DNA from: Arcobacter ellisii
GTDB lineage: Bacteria; Campylobacterota; Campylobacteria; Campylobacterales; Arcobacteraceae
Length of the DNA: 64,000 nt
Direction of reading: 5' to 3'
NCBI RefSeq assembly: GCF_003544915.1
Contig: NZ_CP032097.1
Location: forward strand, 2,728,001-2,792,000
Shown here: in pieces, positions 11,979 through 53,063 of the stretch
How positions within the stretch are numbered: the stretch's first letter is position 1
Layout of the letters: the number at the start of each line of letters is the position of its first letter
Made by a program: the position numbers and the translations under genes
The notes under the pieces: generated by a model
Database searches by the model: none
Seen by the model: only the letters and a program-made list of their open reading frames with translations
What the model was told of the DNA's origin: nothing

Positions 11979-12033
11979 TTTATTTTTATAATAAAATAAT
12001 ACAATCTCACACTTTATTTTAAGGATTATTATT

Positions 12034-12384
12034 ATGAAAAAAATTATTTTAGCATCTGCATTATCTGTTTGCACATTATTAGCTTTTGATATTGGTGGTG
12101 CTTTAAAAAATGCTGGTACAGCTGCTGGAACTGCTGCATTAAACGGTGATACAGATGTAAAATCACTTTCAAAAACTGCTGCTGGTTCAGCTGGATTAAC
12201 TTCTGAAGCTTTAGGAGAAAAATTAGCAACAACTGTAAAATCAAATAATACTACTGTTTCTTCTATGGATAAAGCAAAAGAGTTATGTTCTCAAGCTTCA
12301 ACTGTTCAATCAATCGCAAATATTGATAGCACAATTGTAAAAGAAGCTATTGCTATTTGCTCTGAAAAAGTTATGGATAAATAA
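12034..12384 (+). CDS. Small secreted protein of unknown function
   Basis: A 116-residue protein with a clear signal peptide ('KKIILASALSVCTLLAFD', cleavage probably near residue 18). The mature part is rich in Ala, Gly, Ser and Thr and contains two cysteines near the C-terminus ('ELCSQAS' and 'AICSEK'), possibly a periplasmic disulfide. The composition resembles DUF2501-type periplasmic proteins, but I am not certain. It has its own Shine-Dalgarno (AAGGA) and a terminator downstream, so it is monocistronic. Confidence 0.75.
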   Translation: MKKIILASALSVCTLLAFDIGGALKNAGTAAGTAALNGDTDVKSLSKTAAGSAGLTSEALGEKLATTVKSNNTTVSSMDKAKELCSQASTVQSIANIDSTIVKEAIAICSEKVMDK

Positions 12385-12398
12385 TTACCAATTTTTAT

Positions 12399-12422
12399 AT
12401 AAGAGAGAGTTTTCTCTCTTAT
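12399..12422. terminator. Terminator after the small secreted protein gene
   Basis: A 10-bp perfect stem, ATAAGAGAGA (12399-12408) and TCTCTCTTAT (12413-12422), with a GTTT loop lies 15 nt after the stop codon and before the RND operon. Confidence 0.7.
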
Positions 12423-12495
12423 TCTACTTGTTATATTAATATTCAATTAAACTTCATACATTAAAATCTTATAATTTATTTTCAAGGATTTTTTT

Positions 12496-13644
12496 GTGTT
12501 TAAAAAACTACATTTCATTATTTTTACTCTAACAACTCTTTTTATATTTACAGCCTGTGAAAAAAAAACTCCTACAAATACTCAACCTCAAGCTGTTGAA
12601 GTTGGATATATTTCACTAAAAGAGCAATCTATTGCCTTACAACAAGAGTTATCAGGAAGAGTTAAAGCCAAATTTGTTTCTGAAATTCGACCACAAATTA
12701 GTGGAATTATAAAAAAGCAACTTTTTACAGAAGGTTCAAAGGTAAAACAAGGGGATATTTTATATAAAATTGATTCTACTTCTTATCAAGCCTCTTACAA
12801 TCAAGCAAAAGCATCACTTGAAAGTGCAAAAGCACAAATAGAGAGTTCTAAATTAAAAGTGCAAAGATATGAAGAGTTATTAAAATTTGATGGTATTTCA
12901 AAACAAGAACTTGATGATGCAAAAGCTTCATATCTTCAAGCAATAGCAAATGTTGAAGAGAAAAAAGCAGCACTAGAAAGTGCAAAAATCGACCTTGAAA
13001 GAACAAATATAAAAGCACCTATTTCTGGATATATTGGTGTTTCAACTATAACTTTAGGTTCACTTGTATCATCAAATCAAACTGAAGCCTTAACAACAAT
13101 TAGAGATACAAATAGTGTTTTTGTGGATTTAAGTCAATCACAAGCTCAACTTTTAACTTTACGAAAATTACTAACTAAAGATAATGTAATACAAGGGAGT
13201 TCTGATGTTAGCCTGATTTTAAGTGATAACACAACTTATGAACATAAAGGAACTTTACAACTTCAAGAGGTTTTTGTAGATGAGAGTACAGCAAGTGTGA
13301 CATTAAGAGCAACTTTTCCAAATGAAAAAAATATTTTACTTCCTGGAATGTTTGTAAAAGCAGTTATTGATTCAGCTATTGATACAAAAGCATTTTTAGT
13401 TCCACAACAAGCTGTTTCAAGAGATGAAAAAGCAAATCCAGTTATTACAATTATTCAAAATGACAATAGTGTAAAAAAACAGATAATTACTATTGAAAGA
13501 GCTGTTGGGAATAAATGGTTAGTTACAAATGGTATTTCAAGTGAAGATAAAATCATTATTGAAGGTTTAAATAAAATAACTGCAAAAAGTAAAGTTAATC
13601 CTATTGATGTAACTACAAAATATATAGATATAAAAAAGGATTAA
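12496..13644 (+). CDS. RND efflux periplasmic adaptor lipoprotein
   Basis: A 382-residue membrane-fusion protein linking the inner-membrane RND pump to the outer-membrane channel. A lipoprotein signal ends in 'FIFTAC', giving lipid attachment at the Cys near residue 21. The barrel-sandwich halves 'GRVKAKFVSEIRPQISGIIKKQLFTEGSKVKQGDILYKID' and 'DLERTNIKAPISGYIG' flank a coiled-coil hairpin (about 100-160). The C-terminal beta domains contain 'LPGMFVKAVI'. It starts with GTG after AAGGA and leads a three-gene operon with no adjacent TetR-type regulator. Confidence 0.93.
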   Translation: MFKKLHFIIFTLTTLFIFTACEKKTPTNTQPQAVEVGYISLKEQSIALQQELSGRVKAKFVSEIRPQISGIIKKQLFTEGSKVKQGDILYKIDSTSYQASYNQAKASLESAKAQIESSKLKVQRYEELLKFDGISKQELDDAKASYLQAIANVEEKKAALESAKIDLERTNIKAPISGYIGVSTITLGSLVSSNQTEALTTIRDTNSVFVDLSQSQAQLLTLRKLLTKDNVIQGSSDVSLILSDNTTYEHKGTLQLQEVFVDESTASVTLRATFPNEKNILLPGMFVKAVIDSAIDTKAFLVPQQAVSRDEKANPVITIIQNDNSVKKQIITIERAVGNKWLVTNGISSEDKIIIEGLNKITAKSKVNPIDVTTKYIDIKKD

Positions 13645-13648
13645 TAAA

Positions 13649-16600
13649 ATGATAGCTCGTTTTTTTGTTAATCGCCCTATTTTTGCTTGGGTTATCTCTT
13701 TAGTTATTATGATAGCTGGAACTGTCTCTTTATATACACTTCCAGTGGAACAATATCCTGATATTGCTCCTCCTCAAATAAATATTTCAACAACTTACAC
13801 CGGAGCATCTGCTCAAACGGTTGAAAATAGTGTAACTCAAATAATTGAACAACAACTAACAGGTCTTGATGGAATGATTTATTTTTCTTCAAGTAGTAGT
13901 TCTTCGGGAAATTCAAAAATAAGTGTTACCTTTGAGCAAGGAACAGACCCTGATATTGCTCAAGTTCAAGTTCAAAATAAAGTGCAACAAATACTTTCAA
14001 GACTACCTGATGACGTACAAAGACAAGGAGTAAGAGTAACTAAATCACAATCAGATTTTTTACTTTTAGCCTCTTTATATGATTCAACTGGAAAAGCAAA
14101 TAAAGAGGATATTGCAGACTTTTTAGTAAGTAATTTACAAGATAGTATTTCAAGAATTGATGGTGTTGGAGAAGTTCAAGTTTTTGGTGGACAATATGCC
14201 ATGAGAATTTGGCTAGACCCTAAAAAACTTGAAAACTTTAAATTAATGCCCTCAGATATACAATCAGCTATAAATACTCAAAATTCACAAGCTTCAGCAG
14301 GTCGTTTAGGAGGTTTACCAGTTGTTAGTGACCAACAATTAGCTGTAACTGTAACAGCTAGATCAAAATTTAAAACTGTAAGTGAATTTGAAAATATAAT
14401 AGTTAAAAACAATAGTGATGGTTCATTTGTAAAACTAAAAGATGTTGCAAGGATTGAATTAGGAAGTCAATCATATAGTAATATCACAAATCTAAATGGA
14501 TTTCCATCAACTGGTATTGCAATTCAATTAGCATCAGGTGCAAATGCTATTAAAACCTCAAATAGAATTAAAGAGTTTTTAAAAAAATATGAACCAAATC
14601 TTCCTTTAGGATATGAAATCACATATCCAAGAGATACAACAGCTTTTATACAAGCTTCTATAAAAGAGGTTGTAAAAACTCTAATCGAAGCGATTATTTT
14701 AGTTGTTTTAGTTATGTATATTTTCCTAAAAAATTATAGAGCAACACTTATTCCAGCGGTTGCTGTTCCCGTTGTTTTACTTGGAACTTTTGGAATTTTA
14801 AATATTTTGGGTTATTCAATAAATACTCTTACTATGTTTGGTATGGTTTTATCTATTGGTCTTTTAGTTGATGATGCTATTGTTGTAGTTGAAAATGTTG
14901 AAAGAAATATGAAAGAGTATAATCTTTTACCAAAAGAAGCAACAATAAAAGCCATGCAAGAAATCACTAGTGCTTTAATTGGAGTTGCAACTGTTTTATC
15001 TGTTGTATTTTTACCAATGGCATTTTTTAGTGGTTCAACAGGAGTTATTTATAGACAATTTTCAATAACTATTATCTCTTCTATGGTTTTATCAGTTGTT
15101 GTTGCTTTAACTTTAACACCTGCTTTATGTGCAACAATTTTAAAACCACATAAAGAAGAGAACTCAAAAGGTTTTATCTCTTGGTTTGGGAATCTCTTTG
15201 AAACTTTTACTTTAAGATATAAAAATAGTTTAAGTAGCATACTAAAAAATCCTATAAAATGGATGGTTTTTTATAGTGTTATTATTGGTGCTTTGGCATA
15301 TGTTTTTATAAAACTGCCAACAAGTTTTTTACCAAAAGAGGATCAAGGTTCACTAATGATTCAATACACACTTCCTGAAGGTGCAGTTACTTCAAGAACA
15401 GTTGAAGTTGCCCAAACTATTAAAGATTATTTTTTAAAAGAAGAAGCTTCAAATGTTGATAATATTTTTACAATTTCAGGTTTTAGTAGTAGAAGTAGTG
15501 GTCAAAATGTTGGAACAGCTTTTATCTCTTTAAAAAATTGGGATTTAAGAAAAGGTGAAGAAAATCGTTCAGAAGTTATAGGACAAAGAGCCATGAAAAC
15601 TTTTTCTAATCCAAAATCTCCTTATTTTATAAGAGACGCAAGAGTTATTTCTATGAATCCTCCTGTTGTTCAAGGGTTAGGCTCAACAGATGGTTTTGAG
15701 TTTCAACTTCAAGCAGATGCTATGACTTCAAGAACAGCGCTAAATGAAATAAAAGAAAAAATCTTAGAAGATGCTTCAAAAAATGAAAAAATTAGTTCAG
15801 TAAGAGCAGATGGAACAAACAGTACACCACAACTAAAAATCGATTATGATATACAAAAAGCTTTAACATTAGGTCTTTCTTTATCAAATATTGATGATAC
15901 TTTAAGTGCTGCTTGGGGTGGAGTTTATGTAAATGATTTTATTGATAGGTCAAGGGTAAAAAGAGTTTATATTCAAGGTGATGCACCATTTAGGTCAAAA
16001 CCTGAAGATTTATATGCTTGGAATGTAAGAAACTCAAATGGAGATATGGTTTCATTTGAAGAATTTTCAAATATAAAATGGGATTTTGGTCCAGAAGAAC
16101 TAACTCGTTATAATGGTTTTGCTTCATATCAAATCCAAGGTTCAGCAGCACTTGGAGTTAGTTCAGGAGTTGCTATGGATGAGATAGAAAAAATAGCAAA
16201 TAACTACTCATCAGGAACAATGCACGAATGGAGTGGAGTTTCATATCAAGAAAGACTTTCTACTGGTCAATCAGGACTTTTATATACTGTTTCTATTTTG
16301 ATTATATTTTTATGTTTAGCTGCACTTTATGAGAGCTGGTCTGTGCCATTTTCAATTCTTTTTGTTGTTCCTTTAGGAGTTGTTGGTGCAGTTATGGCTG
16401 TTTATTTTAGAGGTTTAGATAATGATGTTTATTTCCAAGTTGCACTTTTAACAACCATAGGATTGGTTTCAAAAAATGCAATTTTGATTATTGAGTTTGT
16501 TGATACTGCTTATAAAAATGGTAAACCTCTTATTAGTTCAGCAATCGAAGGAGCAACTTTAAGACTAAGACCAATAATTATGACTTCTCTTGCATTTATT

Positions 16601-16789
16601 GCTGGAATTACACCTTTGGCAATATCAACGGGAGCTGGAGCAAATAGTAGGATTTCAATAGGAACTGGAATTGTTGGTGGAACTTTAAGTGCAACCATTT
16701 TAGCGATATTTTTTGTTCCTCTGTTTTATGTTCTAATCAAAAAAATATTTTCATCGAATGAAAAACAATTAAAAAATGAGGTAATTTAA
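13649..16789 (+). CDS. RND multidrug efflux pump, AcrB/HAE1 family
   Basis: A 1046-residue, full-length AcrB-type proton antiporter. It begins 'MIARFFVNRPIFAWVIS', has 12 transmembrane helices in the 1+5+1+5 arrangement, and two large periplasmic loops. The proton-relay Asp pair is in helix 4 ('SIGLLVDDAIVVVENVER'), and the charged Lys lies in the C-terminal half ('GLVSKNAILIIEFV'). It lies 4 nt behind the adaptor and 1 nt before the outer-membrane factor, so the full tripartite pump is in one operon. The hydrophobic/amphiphilic type (drugs, bile salts) is more likely than metal export because the heavy-metal family signatures are absent. Confidence 0.96.
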   Translation: MIARFFVNRPIFAWVISLVIMIAGTVSLYTLPVEQYPDIAPPQINISTTYTGASAQTVENSVTQIIEQQLTGLDGMIYFSSSSSSSGNSKISVTFEQGTDPDIAQVQVQNKVQQILSRLPDDVQRQGVRVTKSQSDFLLLASLYDSTGKANKEDIADFLVSNLQDSISRIDGVGEVQVFGGQYAMRIWLDPKKLENFKLMPSDIQSAINTQNSQASAGRLGGLPVVSDQQLAVTVTARSKFKTVSEFENIIVKNNSDGSFVKLKDVARIELGSQSYSNITNLNGFPSTGIAIQLASGANAIKTSNRIKEFLKKYEPNLPLGYEITYPRDTTAFIQASIKEVVKTLIEAIILVVLVMYIFLKNYRATLIPAVAVPVVLLGTFGILNILGYSINTLTMFGMVLSIGLLVDDAIVVVENVERNMKEYNLLPKEATIKAMQEITSALIGVATVLSVVFLPMAFFSGSTGVIYRQFSITIISSMVLSVVVALTLTPALCATILKPHKEENSKGFISWFGNLFETFTLRYKNSLSSILKNPIKWMVFYSVIIGALAYVFIKLPTSFLPKEDQGSLMIQYTLPEGAVTSRTVEVAQTIKDYFLKEEASNVDNIFTISGFSSRSSGQNVGTAFISLKNWDLRKGEENRSEVIGQRAMKTFSNPKSPYFIRDARVISMNPPVVQGLGSTDGFEFQLQADAMTSRTALNEIKEKILEDASKNEKISSVRADGTNSTPQLKIDYDIQKALTLGLSLSNIDDTLSAAWGGVYVNDFIDRSRVKRVYIQGDAPFRSKPEDLYAWNVRNSNGDMVSFEEFSNIKWDFGPEELTRYNGFASYQIQGSAALGVSSGVAMDEIEKIANNYSSGTMHEWSGVSYQERLSTGQSGLLYTVSILIIFLCLAALYESWSVPFSILFVVPLGVVGAVMAVYFRGLDNDVYFQVALLTTIGLVSKNAILIIEFVDTAYKNGKPLISSAIEGATLRLRPIIMTSLAFIAGITPLAISTGAGANSRISIGTGIVGGTLSATILAIFFVPLFYVLIKKIFSSNEKQLKNEVI

Positions 16790-16790
16790 G

Positions 16791-18215
16791 ATGTTAAAAA
16801 CAAATATTTCAATACTTCTTTCAATCCTTATTTTTAATGGATGTGCCTCTTTAGAGCCAAAGTTAGAACCTGTTGATTCAAATGTAATTCCAAAAGAGTG
16901 GAATACAAAAATAGAAAATAATTCAACCTCAAATATTAATGAGATAAAACCCTCTTGGGAAAATTTTGTTCAAAATGAAACTCTAAAAAAAGTAGTTGAA
17001 TTAGCTATAAAAAACAACAAAGATTTAAAAATAGCTATTTTAAATATAGAATCAGCAAGGGCAACATATAGAGTTTCAAAAGCAGATAATTTTCCTACAA
17101 TCAACACAAACGCAAATACAACAAGAGCAAAAAGTTTAGGTTCAACAAACACAACTTCAATCTCACAAAATTACAATGCAAATCTTAGTACCTCTTACGA
17201 AATTGACCTTTTTGGAAAAATAAAAAGCCTAAATGAGAGTGCATTAAACAGTTATTTATCAACAAAATATGCAGCAAATAACGCAAAAATAACACTTATA
17301 AACGAAACAATAACTGCTTGGATTACACTTGCAAATGATATGGAACAACTAAAACTAGCAAATGAAACCGTAGAAAATCTACAAAAAGTTTATGAGTTAA
17401 ATGAAAAAAAATATAAAGCAGGAGTTATTTCAAAAGCTGATGTTTTAAGTGCAAATGCTTCTTTAAAAGAAGCACAGATTTCAAAAATTTCATATACAAA
17501 ACAAATAGAACAAGATAAAAATGCACTAGAGCTAATAATCGCCCAACCTTTACCAAAAGAGCTTTTACCAAAAGGTTTTGAGAATTATCAAACTTGGTTA
17601 ATTCCAGTAAAAGCTGGTCTTTCTTCACAAGTTTTATTAAATAGACCAGATGTTATGGAAGCAGAATATACACTAAAAGCAAAAAATGCAAATATAGGAG
17701 CAGCAAGGGCTGCATTTTTCCCAAGTATCTCTTTAACTGCAAGTAGTGGAATAGCAACTAAAAGTTTATCAAATCTTTTTGATGGAGGAACTGGTGTTTG
17801 GTCATTTGCTCCAAGTATAACTCTACCAATCTTTGATGGTGGTCAAAATAGTGCAAATTTAGATTACTCTTATGCTCAAAAAGATATTGCACTTTTAGAG
17901 TATGAAAAAACTATTCAAACTGCTTTTAAAGAAGTAAATAATGCACTAATTACCCAAGCAACAATAAATGAACAAATCCAAAAACAAAAAGAGTTGGTTG
18001 ATTCTGTATCAAAAAGTTATGATATCTCTTTAAACTCATACAAAGTTGGTATTGGTACATATTTAGAAGTTTTAATTAATCAAAGAACAAAAATAAATGC
18101 AAAACAAACACTTATAAATACCTATCTTGAAGATTTAACAAACCAAATAACTTTATATGGCGCACTTGGTGGAAATGAGAATATAGAAGAAAATATAGAG
18201 GGAAGAAGTTTCTAA
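16791..18215 (+). CDS. Outer-membrane efflux factor, NodT/TolC family lipoprotein
   Basis: A 474-residue outer-membrane channel of the tripartite pump. The lipoprotein signal ends 'LIFNGCASLEPKL' (lipidated Cys near residue 18). Two related outer-membrane efflux repeats follow (about 60-250 and 265-465), including 'LLNRPDVMEAEYTLKAKNANIGAARAAFFPSISLTA'. It begins one base after the RND pump stop codon and is the last gene of that operon. Confidence 0.94.
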   Translation: MLKTNISILLSILIFNGCASLEPKLEPVDSNVIPKEWNTKIENNSTSNINEIKPSWENFVQNETLKKVVELAIKNNKDLKIAILNIESARATYRVSKADNFPTINTNANTTRAKSLGSTNTTSISQNYNANLSTSYEIDLFGKIKSLNESALNSYLSTKYAANNAKITLINETITAWITLANDMEQLKLANETVENLQKVYELNEKKYKAGVISKADVLSANASLKEAQISKISYTKQIEQDKNALELIIAQPLPKELLPKGFENYQTWLIPVKAGLSSQVLLNRPDVMEAEYTLKAKNANIGAARAAFFPSISLTASSGIATKSLSNLFDGGTGVWSFAPSITLPIFDGGQNSANLDYSYAQKDIALLEYEKTIQTAFKEVNNALITQATINEQIQKQKELVDSVSKSYDISLNSYKVGIGTYLEVLINQRTKINAKQTLINTYLEDLTNQITLYGALGGNENIEENIEGRSF

Positions 18216-18287
18216 ACTCTTTATTTTCTATTTACAAGATTTATCTCTTTTGATATTATTTTAGTTAAAAAATTCGAGGTTAAAAAA

Positions 18288-19706
18288 TTGCGAATCTTAT
18301 CTAATTATCTTGTAAATCCACTATCTGTGATTATTGCTACACTGTTTACTTTTATAAACTTTTTAGTAATTTTGTTGCCTTTTCATGTGACATTGATTCT
18401 TTTTTTAGATTCCCAATCCAATTTTGACCTATCAAACAATATTTTTATTTACACAATGATTTTTATGTTTATTTTTACTTTGATTTATTTGTGTTTGGAT
18501 TTTTATTATGGATTTACCATAAAAACTATTATTAAAGGTTGTCTTGAAATAAAGACTATTCCTGAATTAGATTTTCTTCAAAAAAATTTCGATGAAACAA
18601 TAAAAAATTTTGATTTAAAAAACGTAACTTTTTTATTACAAGAGAGTAAAGAGATAAATGCTTTTGCAGTTTTGAGTTTGAGAAAAAAATATGTGATTAT
18701 TACAACTGAAATGGTTGAACATATTTTAAAAAGTTTTGATACCCAAGAAGCACAAGATAAAGCATTTCAAGGTTTAATCGCACACGAATTATCACATCTT
18801 ATAAATTGGGATTCTCTTCCAAATCTAATACTTCTTTCAGGACAAGTTGTTGCCGTTATTTTATCAAATATCCTAACTTTTGTTTCAACTCTAGTAATAA
18901 GAATTATCTCTATAATTCCTATTGTATCCCTTTTTGCAGTTATAGTGACATATATATTTTTATTTTTACAATTTTGTTTAAATATGATTTATAGTTTTAT
19001 TTTACAACCTCTTTATTTACTTATTGAAAGATTTTTTGGAAGAGTAATAGAACATCGTTCAGATTACCAAAGTGCAAAAGCTCTAAGTTGGGAATCGATG
19101 TATCTTTGTTTGAACTCTTTAATGGCTTTAAATGGAAATACTTTTAATAGTAGTTTTTCAACCCATCCAAGTACAATAAATAGGATTTTACATATTTATA
19201 AAATTGAAAAATCGCCTGAAAATATCGAAGTCTCTTTTTTTAGTAAATATTTTAGTTTGATATTAGTTTTTGCCTCTTTAGTTTTATCAATCTATTTTTT
19301 AGTTATGAATTTTAATCACTTAAATTATCTAAATGAGATACTAAAAGATTATCTTGCTTTATTTTATTCAAGCACAAAAGATTTACTTTTTTATATCCAT
19401 GAAACAAAATTATATTTACCAATAGTTGTAGCGATAATCGCAGCTTTTTTAACTTTTTATATTTTGAAAAAGATTTCACTTTTTGTAAAAAAAATCTATG
19501 TTTCAAAAAATCTTAATAGAAGTGAAAATACACCTATTGATTTTTTACTTTTATATGCAATACAAAACAATGACCTAAATGCTTTTTTAAACATCTTAAA
19601 ATCAGGTGCAAATATAGATATGATTTTTGAAGGACATACAATAGAAACATACGCACAACATATGAATCCAAAGTTTTTAAAACATATTGAAAAAATCAAA
19701 GGCTAA
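18288..19706 (+). CDS. M48 family integral-membrane zinc metalloprotease
   Basis: A 472-residue membrane protease related to HtpX and YhfN-type enzymes. The zinc motif HELSH is in 'GLIAHELSHLINWDS' near residue 165, and the third ligand is probably the Glu in 'VIEHRSDYQSAK' near 255. There are two N-terminal membrane segments, a hydrophobic stretch between the zinc motif and the third ligand, and more after it. The last ~50 residues ('LLLYAIQNNDLNAFLNILKSGANID') resemble a single ankyrin repeat. The start is TTG at 18288, 8 nt after GAGG. The substrate is unknown, and membrane protein quality control is the usual role. Confidence 0.88.
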   Translation: MRILSNYLVNPLSVIIATLFTFINFLVILLPFHVTLILFLDSQSNFDLSNNIFIYTMIFMFIFTLIYLCLDFYYGFTIKTIIKGCLEIKTIPELDFLQKNFDETIKNFDLKNVTFLLQESKEINAFAVLSLRKKYVIITTEMVEHILKSFDTQEAQDKAFQGLIAHELSHLINWDSLPNLILLSGQVVAVILSNILTFVSTLVIRIISIIPIVSLFAVIVTYIFLFLQFCLNMIYSFILQPLYLLIERFFGRVIEHRSDYQSAKALSWESMYLCLNSLMALNGNTFNSSFSTHPSTINRILHIYKIEKSPENIEVSFFSKYFSLILVFASLVLSIYFLVMNFNHLNYLNEILKDYLALFYSSTKDLLFYIHETKLYLPIVVAIIAAFLTFYILKKISLFVKKIYVSKNLNRSENTPIDFLLLYAIQNNDLNAFLNILKSGANIDMIFEGHTIETYAQHMNPKFLKHIEKIKG

Positions 19707-19713
19707 ATTATAA

Positions 19714-19905
19714 ATGAACATAGAATACAAATTTTTACAAAAAGCAATAGCTGATAAAAACTATATTAATTTTAGTTATGAAAACAAAAGTTATAAAAAT
19801 GTAAAACCTTTGAAACTAGACGATGAAAATAGACTTTTTAGTGATAAAGGTGTTTTTGAGTTTGGGAAGATTAGGAAGTTGGTGATTTTGAAAGAAAGGT
19901 TTTGA
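19714..19905 (+). CDS. Small hypothetical protein, WYL-like fragment
   Basis: A 63-residue protein starting 7 nt after the M48 gene. 'INFSYENKSYKNVKPLKLDDENRLFS' looks like the first strands of a WYL-type ligand-sensing domain, but it is too short for a full domain and lacks a DNA-binding part. The ATG has no clear Shine-Dalgarno and may be translated by coupling to the protease gene. Low confidence in function, moderate in being a real gene. Confidence 0.5.
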   Translation: MNIEYKFLQKAIADKNYINFSYENKSYKNVKPLKLDDENRLFSDKGVFEFGKIRKLVILKERF

Positions 19906-19996
19906 AACTTTATTCTTTTAATAATATTTTTCATAGATTATAAGCCATGATAAAATATTATTTTTTTATAATAAATAAATTATTAAAAGGTTATCA

Positions 19997-21036
19997 ATGG
20001 CAACACCTAAAGTTTTTGTTAGTTCAACATGTTTTGATTTAAAAGAAGTTAGAGATTCTATTAGTAGATTTATAAAAAGTTTTGGATTTGAACCAATACT
20101 TAGTGAACACGGAGACGTTTTTTATCATCCTGATTTACATACTCATGAAGCTTGTATCCATGAAGTTTCAAATTGCCAATTATTTATTTTAATAATTGGT
20201 GGAAGATTCGGTGGTACTTATGATATTGATAAGCAAAAATCGATAACTAATGCTGAATATGATGCTGCTAGACAATTAAATATCCCTGTTTTTACTTATA
20301 TAAAAAAGGTGTATATGATAATCATCATACCTACCAAGCAAACAAAAATAAAGAATTTGCTGAAAAAATAGATTTTCCAAATATAGAAAATCAAGAATAT
20401 GCAATAAATATCTTTAATTTTATTGACCAAGTTAGAAAATCTAAAACAAATAATGCTTTTGAAACTTTTGAAACAGCAAATGAAATTGAAATACATCTTA
20501 AAAAACAATGGGCTGGAATGTTTTTTGAATTTCTTAAAAATAGAGAAGTAAAAGAACAAGTTAATGCAGCAAACTTTATGTTAACTACATTGAAAACATC
20601 AAGTGAAAAACTAGAAGAAATGATAAAAGTTTTATACAGTCCAGAGCAACAAGAAAACAAATTAGATAATATAGAACATAAATACAATGCTATTGAATTT
20701 TTTGAGCTCGTATTAAAATCACCTTCAAATGAAAATAAAAATTATCTAGCAGAAGAAAGTAAATTAGATGAACTTACAAAAATTGACCCAAATACTTGTT
20801 CATGGACAGATTATTTGATTAAACTAGGTGCTTTTAAATTATCTAAAACTACTTTTTCTAAAGATTTAGATTTTATTGGAATTGGAAAGCAAGATTTTAT
20901 GATTGTTCTTGAAGACTTATTAAGTGAAGAAAAAGAACATAACCATTTAAAAATTTATGCAGAAAAATTTGAAAATGGTATTAAAAAATTATCTGAAGAA
21001 GAAAGAAAACAAATATTAGAAAAATTTGTAAAATAG
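19997..21036 (+). pseudogene. DUF4062 domain protein, split by a -1 frameshift at 20302-20308
   Basis: The first frame (19997-20371) encodes the typical DUF4062 domain: 'KVFVSSTCFDLKEVRDSISRFIKSFGFEPI' to 'SITNAEYDAARQLNIPVFTYIKK'. After 'YIKK' it runs into a divergent tail and stops. The -1 frame continues perfectly from 20309 ('GVYDNHHTYQANK...') and stays open to 21036, so the intact protein would be about 346 residues. DUF4062 occurs in proteins of signalling and defence-like architectures, with no firm function. The joint sits on A AAA AAG in the correct phase for -1 slippage, so this could be programmed or phase-variable expression rather than a dead gene. AAAAGG precedes the ATG. Confidence 0.75.
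20302..20329 (+). other. Candidate -1 ribosomal slippery site with downstream stem-loop
   Basis: A AAA AAG (20302-20308) is in the phase required for dnaX-type -1 slippage. A 5-nt spacer is followed by TATGAT (20314-20319), loop AATC, and ATCATA (20324-20329), a perfect but weak 6-bp stem. No clear internal Shine-Dalgarno stimulator is visible upstream. A one-base deletion in the A-run explains the data equally well. Confidence 0.4.
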
Positions 21037-21151
21037 TAAATTTTGTTAAAGTTCAAGGCAAGAGGAGAAATTGAAGTAGGAGCATACTACAAAGTATGTG
21101 ACTATTTCAATTTTGACGATAACGCAGAAATTTAGCAAAAGAACTATTTTA
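21030..21151. repeat. Large imperfect palindrome (about 59-nt arms) between convergent genes
   Basis: The arms meet at CATACT-ACAA-AGTATG (21083-21098). Going outward, ATTGAAGTAG pairs with CTATTTCAAT, then there is an internal loop, then TTTTGTTAA with a complementary TTAGCAAAA, and the outer AAAATAGT (from 21030) with ACTATTTT (to 21150). The whole element covers the 112-nt gap between the DUF4062 gene and the flavoprotein gene and touches both stop codons. It could end transcription on both strands or be a dispersed REP/MITE-like unit. Only one copy is in this window. Confidence 0.65.
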
Positions 21152-22375
21152 CTTAGCTAAACTTTTCCCAACAAGATACCCACTCGCCCACGCAAAGTGT
21201 AAGTTAAATCCTCCCCTATTTCCAACTATATCTAAAACTTCACCAGCAAAATATAGATTTTTCACTAACTTACTTTCATAAGTTTTATTATCAACTTCAA
21301 CAGTTCTTACACCTCCCCCACTTGCTTCTGCGTGAGCGAAACCTTGAGTATCTACAACTTTCATCTTCCATTGATTTAGTTGATAAGCTATTGCTTTTAT
21401 CTGTTTTGCATTTATTTCATTTGCTTTTGTATCAAGATTGATTTTACAAATATCAAGTAACACAGGAGCTATTTTATTTGAAACCATTCCAGTTAAAATA
21501 TCTACAACTCTTTGATTTGGTACGGTTTTTAGTAAACTTTGTATTTGGTCGGATAAATCATTTTTATTTATTTTTGGAAAGAAGTTGATAGCTATTTTTA
21601 CATCTTGATAAGAGCTTAGATTTAAAACTGCAAGTTGGGATATATCAAGTATCGCAAAACCTGAAACTCCATAACTTGTAAAAAGTACATCTCCAAATAT
21701 CTCTTGCTCTAAATTGTTATTTACAAACAGACTTACTAAACACTCTTTTTTAACTCCTTGAAGTTTTCCATTGTAGTTATTATCAGTTTGAAGTCCCACA
21801 AGAGATGGATAAGTTGGATTATATGAGTGTCCAAATTTTGAAGCAAAATCTAAACCACTCTCGTTTGCATTTAGTTGAGGAGCTGCACCTAAACCATTTG
21901 AGATTAGAACTTTGTCATAGTTTTTGTATTCAAATTCGTGAGTTTTTACTACAAATTTATCTTCAACTTTTTCTATATCTTTTATGAAATGTTCTAAATA
22001 AACATTAACATCTAAATTTTTTAAAGCCAACTCCAAAAGATTTGTTACTGATTTTGCTTCATTTGAAAGTGGATAAACTTTTCCACTCTCTTTCTCATCA
22101 AGTAAAAGTCCAATACTTTTACAAAATTTTTCAAAGGCTTTAAAATCAAACTCTTTTAAAGCAAAATTTACAAAATCAGGATTTTCTCCTATAAAATTTT
22201 TTGAAGTTATCTTGCTATTTGAGATATTGCATCTTCCATTTCCACTAGCCAAGATTTTTTTCCCAATACCTTTATTTGCATCAAACATATCTATTTGTAA
22301 ATTTTTATTTAATCTTTTAGCTGTAATTGCAGCCATAATTCCAGCTGCTCCACAGCCAATAATCGCTATTTTCAA
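21149..22375 (-). CDS. HI0933/BaiN-like FAD-dependent oxidoreductase
   Basis: A 408-residue flavoprotein. The N-terminal dinucleotide motif is 'IAIIGCGAAGIMAAITAKRLN', 'ILASGNGRCNISNSK' follows near residue 43, and the C-terminal family signature is 'NLYFAGEVLDIVGNRGGFNLHFAWASGYLVGKSLAK'. This is the HI0933/aminoacetone-oxidase-like family, which uses FAD and probably NAD(P)H. The natural substrate is unknown, and the BaiN bile-acid assignment is only one member's role. It is transcribed alone and diverges from the MoxR gene. Confidence 0.9.
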   Translation of the reverse strand: MKIAIIGCGAAGIMAAITAKRLNKNLQIDMFDANKGIGKKILASGNGRCNISNSKITSKNFIGENPDFVNFALKEFDFKAFEKFCKSIGLLLDEKESGKVYPLSNEAKSVTNLLELALKNLDVNVYLEHFIKDIEKVEDKFVVKTHEFEYKNYDKVLISNGLGAAPQLNANESGLDFASKFGHSYNPTYPSLVGLQTDNNYNGKLQGVKKECLVSLFVNNNLEQEIFGDVLFTSYGVSGFAILDISQLAVLNLSSYQDVKIAINFFPKINKNDLSDQIQSLLKTVPNQRVVDILTGMVSNKIAPVLLDICKINLDTKANEINAKQIKAIAYQLNQWKMKVVDTQGFAHAEASGGGVRTVEVDNKTYESKLVKNLYFAGEVLDIVGNRGGFNLHFAWASGYLVGKSLAK

Positions 22376-51187: not shown

Positions 51188-52120
51188 TTAGCCAATTCTT
51201 GCTATTCTAAATGTAACTGCATGTTCATAAATAAGTGAGTTGCTGTAAAAACAAGTAATCATTCCATTACAAGGAGCTAAAAATTGGTGAATTATATTAC
51301 CTTCTAAAGAGTCAACTATTTCCCCTATTATTTGGTCTTTTGATACATAATTCCCAGCTAATTCTTTTGGTATAAAAATTCCACTTTTTGGTGATTTTAC
51401 TATACTTATTGTATTTCTATCCATTATTGTTGATTCATAACCATTGAAGATATGATAATTAATGATTTTACTTTTGTCCATAAATCTAATAATTGCTTGA
51501 TTTATTTGGCTTGCTATTTTTTTATCCACTTGATTATCACTTGGACAAATAACAGAAAATGCTTTTGTTCCCCAAAGTTGCCAGTTATATTGTAAAGTTA
51601 CAGTATCTATTGATTTCATAGTTCTATGATGAATTAGTTTAAAACCAAATCTTTTTGCGGCTAATAAATCTTCATATCCACTTTTATAAAGTTTTATATA
51701 TGGTACACAAGTAGCTGGATCTGGACGTCTTTCTAGGATTATTCCATAATCATAACCATTTATTGCATCAAAAACTTTTTTTGCAATTCTTTGAGTTGTT
51801 TCACCAAATTCATATCCTGGAAACATCATATTTATATCAGTATTATCCAAAGGCCAAAATCTTTTCCCAATATTCAAAGCATAATGATTTATTGAAGGAA
51901 TAATTAAAATATCACCTTTTATTTTCTCTTCTTCAATTTTATTTTTAAAAAAATCAACCAATGATGAAGCACAATATAAAGGAAGTATAGAATCTCCTTC
52001 CATTGCACCAACAACAGCAACTCTTGGAGCTTTTGGATTTGAACCTTTAAATAAATATCCCTCAACTACTAAAGGAGCACGACTAAGTGATTCTATTTTT
52101 AAAATCTCAATTTTTTCCAC
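51188..52120 (-). CDS. AstE/AspA-like protein lacking zinc ligands, probable pseudoenzyme (cassette B)
   Basis: About 310 residues, similar in length and fold to its neighbour at 52107-53063. The zinc motif H-x-x-E of that neighbour reads M-E-G-D here ('VGAMEGDSIL'), the second His (DIHSS) is replaced in 'ILERRPD', the catalytic Glu region is 'FSVICPSDN', and the substrate Arg in 'DLNRAFPG' is Met ('DINMMFPG'). It therefore should not hydrolyse as AspA does and may serve as a regulatory or structural partner. I chose the GTG at 52120 (GGAG 6 nt upstream) over the TTG at 52132. It is the last gene of cassette B. Confidence 0.8.
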   Translation of the reverse strand: MEKIEILKIESLSRAPLVVEGYLFKGSNPKAPRVAVVGAMEGDSILPLYCASSLVDFFKNKIEEEKIKGDILIIPSINHYALNIGKRFWPLDNTDINMMFPGYEFGETTQRIAKKVFDAINGYDYGIILERRPDPATCVPYIKLYKSGYEDLLAAKRFGFKLIHHRTMKSIDTVTLQYNWQLWGTKAFSVICPSDNQVDKKIASQINQAIIRFMDKSKIINYHIFNGYESTIMDRNTISIVKSPKSGIFIPKELAGNYVSKDQIIGEIVDSLEGNIIHQFLAPCNGMITCFYSNSLIYEHAVTFRIARIG

Positions 52121-53063
52121 TTTTTTCTCCAAAAATTCTAGCTATTAAAGAACCTTCATAAACAACTGGATACTCTCTTAATGTAAATAAAATTCCATCA
52201 TTAGGAGCAAATAATGTAGATAATATTGTTCCACTTAATGGGTCAACAATATCTCCTATTTTATTCCCCTCTTTTATAATCGCACAATGGTCAAGAGCAG
52301 GAACAAAAAGTCCACTTCTTGGAGCATTTAGATAAAAAACATCTCCAATTTCTGAACTAAAAGGAACTCTTACATCAAAATTCTCTTCACACTCAATAAT
52401 TCTCTCTTTTTTCATAAGATTTAAAATACCTATTAAAAGTTGGTTTCCATACTCTTTTGTAAGTCTCATTCCAACACCCATTTCAACAACAAGTGTTTTT
52501 GTACCCATTGAGTTTAAAGTATGTGAAAAAGTAGCTTCTAAAACTGTTACCGCATCATGTATCCAAATAAAATCACAGTTTAACTCTTTTGCTAAAGGTA
52601 AAGTATCTTTTGAAAACTCTTTATTTATTCTAATTTGAGGAATCTCTCTTAAAAAAATATTACTTGAATGAATATCAATAGCTATATCACTTCCTCTTAC
52701 ATCATTTGCAAGGGCATGAACAACTTGACCAGGAAGAAACTCCTGTGCACTTCCTGGAAATGCCCTATTCAAATCAACATCATATAAAGGAAATCCTCTT
52801 GTAATTGTATCAACACCCAAAGAGTTAACAGCAGGGTATAAATCGACTATTCCCCTTAGTTTTTCACTATTTTTATTTAGCCAATCAGCTAAAAGATAAA
52901 TAACTAATTGTCCTTCTAATTCATCGCCATGAATACCACTAACAATTGAAATTCTTTTAGCTTTTTTGTTATCATTTATTTCTGTAGATTCAAATCTAGC
53001 TCTTTTTATAGCAAGTTTTTCACCAACAGGTAAATTTGATGTGAAGATTTCTTCTATTATCAT
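52107..53063 (-). CDS. Succinylglutamate desuccinylase/aspartoacylase family zinc hydrolase (cassette B)
   Basis: A 318-residue M14-fold zinc enzyme. The ligands are His45 and Glu48 in 'SGIHGDELEG' and His132 in 'IDIHSS', the catalytic base is probably Glu194 in 'LVVEMGVG', and the carboxylate-binding Arg is in 'VDLNRAFPG'. It should cleave an N-acyl amino acid or gamma-amide-type bond. The substrate is unknown. It overlaps the alpha-E gene by 1 nt and the pseudoenzyme gene by 14 nt, so the three are coupled. Confidence 0.9.
   Translation of the reverse strand: MIIEEIFTSNLPVGEKLAIKRARFESTEINDNKKAKRISIVSGIHGDELEGQLVIYLLADWLNKNSEKLRGIVDLYPAVNSLGVDTITRGFPLYDVDLNRAFPGSAQEFLPGQVVHALANDVRGSDIAIDIHSSNIFLREIPQIRINKEFSKDTLPLAKELNCDFIWIHDAVTVLEATFSHTLNSMGTKTLVVEMGVGMRLTKEYGNQLLIGILNLMKKERIIECEENFDVRVPFSSEIGDVFYLNAPRSGLFVPALDHCAIIKEGNKIGDIVDPLSGTILSTLFAPNDGILFTLREYPVVYEGSLIARIFGEKSGKN

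Follow-up and report, generated by a model that had tools for sequence, protein, structure and literature searches.

Recent work has identified DUF4062 as a TIR-like NADase with a role in phage defence, in the system named Swarozyc (PMC13174449). Its Klebsiella pneumoniae representative, the DUF4062 TIR-like NADase defence protein KpSwz (PMC13174449; PDB 10wc, 11cq, 11cv), requires the C-terminal domain for defence. A second body of work concerns programmed -1 ribosomal frameshifting of the dnaX or IS3 type. In IS elements, A AAA AAG is one of the commonest heptamers. In E. coli it ranks with the most shift-prone ones, and without stimulators it belongs there to the heptamers above 0.10% (PMC4066793). 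Frame changes are also found in singleton genes, which the GeneTack survey classed as pseudogenes, h-pseudo or errors (PMC3711429). The locus analysed here touches all three. It lies in a window of 64,000 nucleotides, positions 2728001-2792000 of the complete, single-contig genome of Arcobacter ellisii (2,799,949 bp), where an initial annotation had described a DUF4062 gene split at a slippery heptamer and had suggested dnaX-type programmed frameshifting. All positions below are those of the window unless a locus is named.

Reading frames and domain content

The frame-0 ORF (19997-20371, + strand; 124 aa) covers the N-terminal, DUF4062/TIR-like part of the protein, in which Glu87 is the presumed catalytic residue. 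It starts at ATG 19997 and runs through 102 DUF4062 codons and AAA AAG into a 20-residue non-homologous tail that stops at 20371. Pfam DUF4062 (PF13271) matched residues 5-91 with an E value of 3e-24 and 85.4 bits against a gathering cut-off of 24.7. The codons around the split are ...TTT ACT TAT ATA AAA AAG GTG TAT..., with A AAA AAG in register (ATA AAA AAG) at 20302-20308 (+), and here the homology passes to the -1 frame. Read from 20302, the latter gives KKGVYDNHHTYQ... and ends with TAG at 21034-21036. It has 244 residues (KKGVYDNHH...) when both lysines are counted and 242 beyond the heptamer, and this continuation of 242 codons plus stop (20309-21036, +) is the rest of the protein, homologous to intact relatives up to the C-terminus. 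The frame-switched reading of 346 aa aligned over its whole length with intact homologues (40-48% identity), which shows that this sequence does change frame at the heptamer. In these respects, that is the DUF4062 identity, the exact split at the in-phase heptamer, the open -1 frame and the early end of the zero frame, the initial annotation was confirmed.

Like KpSwz, the protein has an N-terminal DUF4062 of about 100 residues with VFVSST, LIIGGRxG and SxTxxE-type motifs and a long C-terminal part behind it. Its distribution is patchy, as the gene was found in only 3 of 104 genomes of the family, and the corresponding slot of sister species holds defence-type genes. The position of KpSwz E97A aligned with Glu87 (KpSwz numbering inferred), which is conserved in all homologues. 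However, the similarity to KpSwz is weak and limited to the N-terminal part (chain 10wc against residues 5-102, E 0.04), the C-terminal part showed no detectable sequence similarity to KpSwz, and the gene described here is frame-disrupted. An AlphaFold model of the homologue from the Planctomycetes contig L037 reached a mean pLDDT of 51.8 and was usable in the N-terminal part only. According to this low-confidence model, the split would directly follow strand four of the TIR-like core. Foldseek searches with the model returned weak TIR and DNPH1 (deoxyribosyltransferase-like) matches, none at E <=0.001, and PADLOC gave no match. By analogy with Swarozyc, the intact protein would consist of a TIR-like NADase domain and a long, mostly helical C-terminal part and may act as a phage sensor and abortive-infection effector. 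The frame-0 product would probably be inactive, because it is without everything past the fourth core strand and without the whole C-terminal part, whose counterpart is required in KpSwz; the gene would then be inactive or nearly so in this genome.

Comparison with homologues

The initial annotation had proposed an alignment of orthologues to look for a conserved heptamer and split. The idea of a heptamer conserved among congeners was rejected, with the gene present in only 3 of 104 genomes of the family. Across the site, none of the four homologues aligned (G055, G029, L037 and L069) is split. Those in G055 (48% identity), L037 (46%) and G029 (40%) have a single open frame over the full length, and the Acinetobacter homologue L069 (35% identity over residues 1-278) has one continuous frame across the site. 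The codons aligned to Lys-Lys are GTG AAA AAA TCT in G055, GTA AAA AAG AAT in L037, GTT GAA GCA GGG in G029 and ATT GAT CAA AAT in L069. In L037 the third base of GTA thus creates an in-register A AAA AAG at the same two lysine codons, and the gene is unsplit. Since this relative carries the same heptamer without a split, the heptamer is no more than a spelling of Lys-Lys that follows an A-ending codon. An Aliivibrio homologue (L038) was considered as a second split case and rejected, as its apparent break is a masked run of N with no insertion. In viral contigs no relative with the single protein was found; the alignment was too diverged for use. The E. coli genomes gave no match.

The -1 half was 38-54% identical to each homologue near the junction and 23-35% further on, and similar values were obtained among the homologues themselves. 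Therefore, long decay is not apparent in the half behind the split, as would be expected if the indel were very recent or an error.

Origin of the split

To place the heptamer in its genomic background, we used a sample of twenty 20-kb stretches plus the window (464 kb) with 333 non-overlapping ORFs of at least 150 aa. Within the window, 106 copies of the heptamer sequence were counted, where 99 are expected. In register, A AAA AAG was found in 63 copies in 53 of the 333 genes of the 464 kb, against 27 expected from codon shuffles, and hence it is not avoided in this genome. The same genes contain 527 A-runs of at least seven. Losing one A would leave an in-register A AAA AAG in 137 of them (26%), and 219 (42%) would be left with an A-type heptamer of some kind in register. 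Once one base has been lost from an A-run, it is therefore ordinary to find a dnaX-like heptamer at the break point.

We consider it most probable, at about 0.88, that a horizontally acquired accessory DUF4062 gene has been interrupted by a single-base indel in the A-run that encodes Lys-Lys, the indel being either a recent mutation or a sequencing or assembly error. An A-run indel, by mutation or sequencing error, had been listed initially as an alternative and now accounts best for the locus. Other split genes were looked for in the 464 kb by an incomplete screen, which sought neighbouring open frames that have no ATG close by; apart from an IS3-type element none was convincing, so that a generally error-prone assembly is not indicated. 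The case resembles the GeneTack singletons in that the frame change is validated against intact relatives, occurs in one genome and has no conserved site (PMC3711429). It differs in nothing essential, the slippery heptamer being an extra resemblance that is explained by the A-run. Besides the lack of other convincing split genes in this screen, two points stand against the indel: the intact state of the 242-codon -1 frame would be expected under programmed use as well, and the heptamer has the record in IS elements and E. coli cited above. All tRNA-Lys genes found have the anticodon UUU, and together with the inherently shift-prone heptamer this makes low-level unstimulated slippage likely. 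In this reading the accessory gene is broken by the indel in the Lys-Lys run, and a low level of unselected ribosomal slippage on the heptamer may leak a little full-length protein.

An extension of this reading gives the leak a role. The TIR-like NADase would be throttled by low-level -1 slippage at the indel-made heptamer, resulting in mostly inert product and a trace of full-length effector, and the indel, as a check on a costly gene, would be tolerated or indeed favoured. We regard this as very improbable. Were the slippage selected, an abortive-infection effector would be held in check by a novel mechanism, but this is not where the evidence leads.

Programmed -1 frameshifting, in which the gene would yield both a short DUF4062-only and a full-length protein, is in our view very improbable, although the in-register A AAA AAG, the undamaged -1 frame, the UUU anticodon of every tRNA-Lys gene found and a hairpin at 5 nt all agree with it. 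The 6-bp stem-loop reported in the initial annotation is present (TATGAT-AATC-ATCATA, mostly A-U; 20314-20329, +; arms 20314-20319 and 20324-20329, 4-nt loop) and begins 5 nt after the heptamer. It has one G-C pair, and the stem alone has an MFE of -2.8 kcal/mol. Its arms fall in the codons for the conserved Asn-His-His (N-H-H) region, and the hairpin itself was absent from relatives. Stems of at least 6 bp at that spacing occur at 21% of random codon positions and after 18 of the 63 in-register heptamers. In windows of 42-101 nt the MFE was that of average coding sequence, with an equal or greater stability in 28-51% of random coding windows. Compared with dinucleotide shuffles, z values of -1.7 and -3.1 were obtained, of which the -3.1 belongs to the 101-nt fold, a fold that is average among real coding windows here. 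An Rfam search gave no match. Judged by random coding windows, the remaining in-register heptamers, the relatives and the IS3-type control described below, the hairpin was rejected as a stimulator, and heptamer and hairpin together are not more than chance.

Moreover, the 30 nt before the heptamer contain none of the SD-like elements GAGG, GGAG, AGGA, GGNGG or AGGKG, for which the criteria (6-17 nt before the motif) were taken from PMC4066793; some known frameshift cases and the IS3-type control are likewise without one. This control, an IS3-type element of the same genome (L050, 18726-19909), has its HTH_Tnp_1 and rve halves in two frames with an in-register A AAA AAG at the orfA/orfB junction, and its family suggests that it is likely a genuine frameshift site. 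It shares heptamer and register with the DUF4062 site and to that extent favours programmed use there as well. In contrast to the 6-bp stem of -2.8 kcal/mol, however, it carries, 6 nt downstream of the heptamer, a 10-bp hairpin of -11.2 kcal/mol. Further against programmed use, the in-register heptamer also occurs in 53 of 333 ordinary genes, the split is absent from all four homologues, one of which has the heptamer in an unsplit gene, and the short product would, in the low-confidence model, stop after core strand 4 and not at a domain boundary.

Accordingly, the dnaX-type interpretation of the initial annotation could not be upheld. The DUF4062 site shares with dnaX the in-register A AAA AAG and a hairpin a few nucleotides downstream, but it is without an upstream SD-like element, its hairpin is weak, its split is unconserved, one homologue has the heptamer unsplit, and the geometry is common after loss of one A from an in-frame A-run that precedes a G. 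The site owes its likeness to dnaX to base composition. In an AT-rich genome, an indel of a single A can imitate the dnaX-type signal, and for this reason a heptamer with a spacer and a short hairpin is no evidence of recoding in such a genome.

Reversible phase variation, whereby slipped-strand changes of the A-run would switch a costly defence gene on and off, appears just as improbable as programmed frameshifting. Defence genes can be phase-variable, a homopolymer sits at the split and the downstream frame is undamaged, but the run comprises only six A's here and homologues do not keep a long A-run (GAA GCA in G029, GAT CAA in Acinetobacter). As there are 527 A-runs of at least seven in the 333 sampled genes, a run of this length makes no distinctive contingency locus.

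Expression of the protein by transcriptional slippage at the A-run is the least probable explanation, since this process, described at long A-runs in AT-rich genomes (PMC5009743), has been reported at runs of more than seven and often of at least nine (PMC3711429, PMC5009743), and six A's are present here.

Genomic context

The locus is an example of a Swarozyc-like DUF4062 gene located within a variable defence slot in Arcobacter-type bacteria. We compared window positions 19714-22375 with the loci L100, L103, L104 and L105. On the left the slot is bounded by a conserved 63-aa ORF (19714-19905, +), which forms this edge in most sister species examined, and on the right by a gene (21149-22375, -) that is conserved in 31 of 31 congeners and that we take, by its sequence, to encode an oxidoreductase of the NAD(P)/FAD type. 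Between these edges, G010 has an EcoO109I-type restriction enzyme with a C5 methyltransferase, G006 a HepT/nucleotidyltransferase (HepT/MNT) pair, and G002 a YafQ-type toxin with a probable Phd-type antitoxin and a DUF2971 gene, and in G022 the slot is nearly empty. The interval from the 63-aa ORF to the oxidoreductase is a variable slot with cargo that, from its predicted products, is of the defence type. In the metY region of L104 (G006), the metY-like protein is 98% identical to that of the window, compared with 89% for the adjoining oxidoreductase, which may reflect recombination.

Two further observations concern other regions. At L048, positions 12000-20000 (G000:C1, about 292000-300000), a tandem repeat of 408 bp was found in no fewer than 19 copies, probably within a gene for a large adhesin-type repeat protein. 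On the minus strand of the window (51191-53063), two adjacent genes of the AstE/AspA type (succinylglutamate desuccinylase/aspartoacylase) have overlapping open frames and are probably tandem paralogues.
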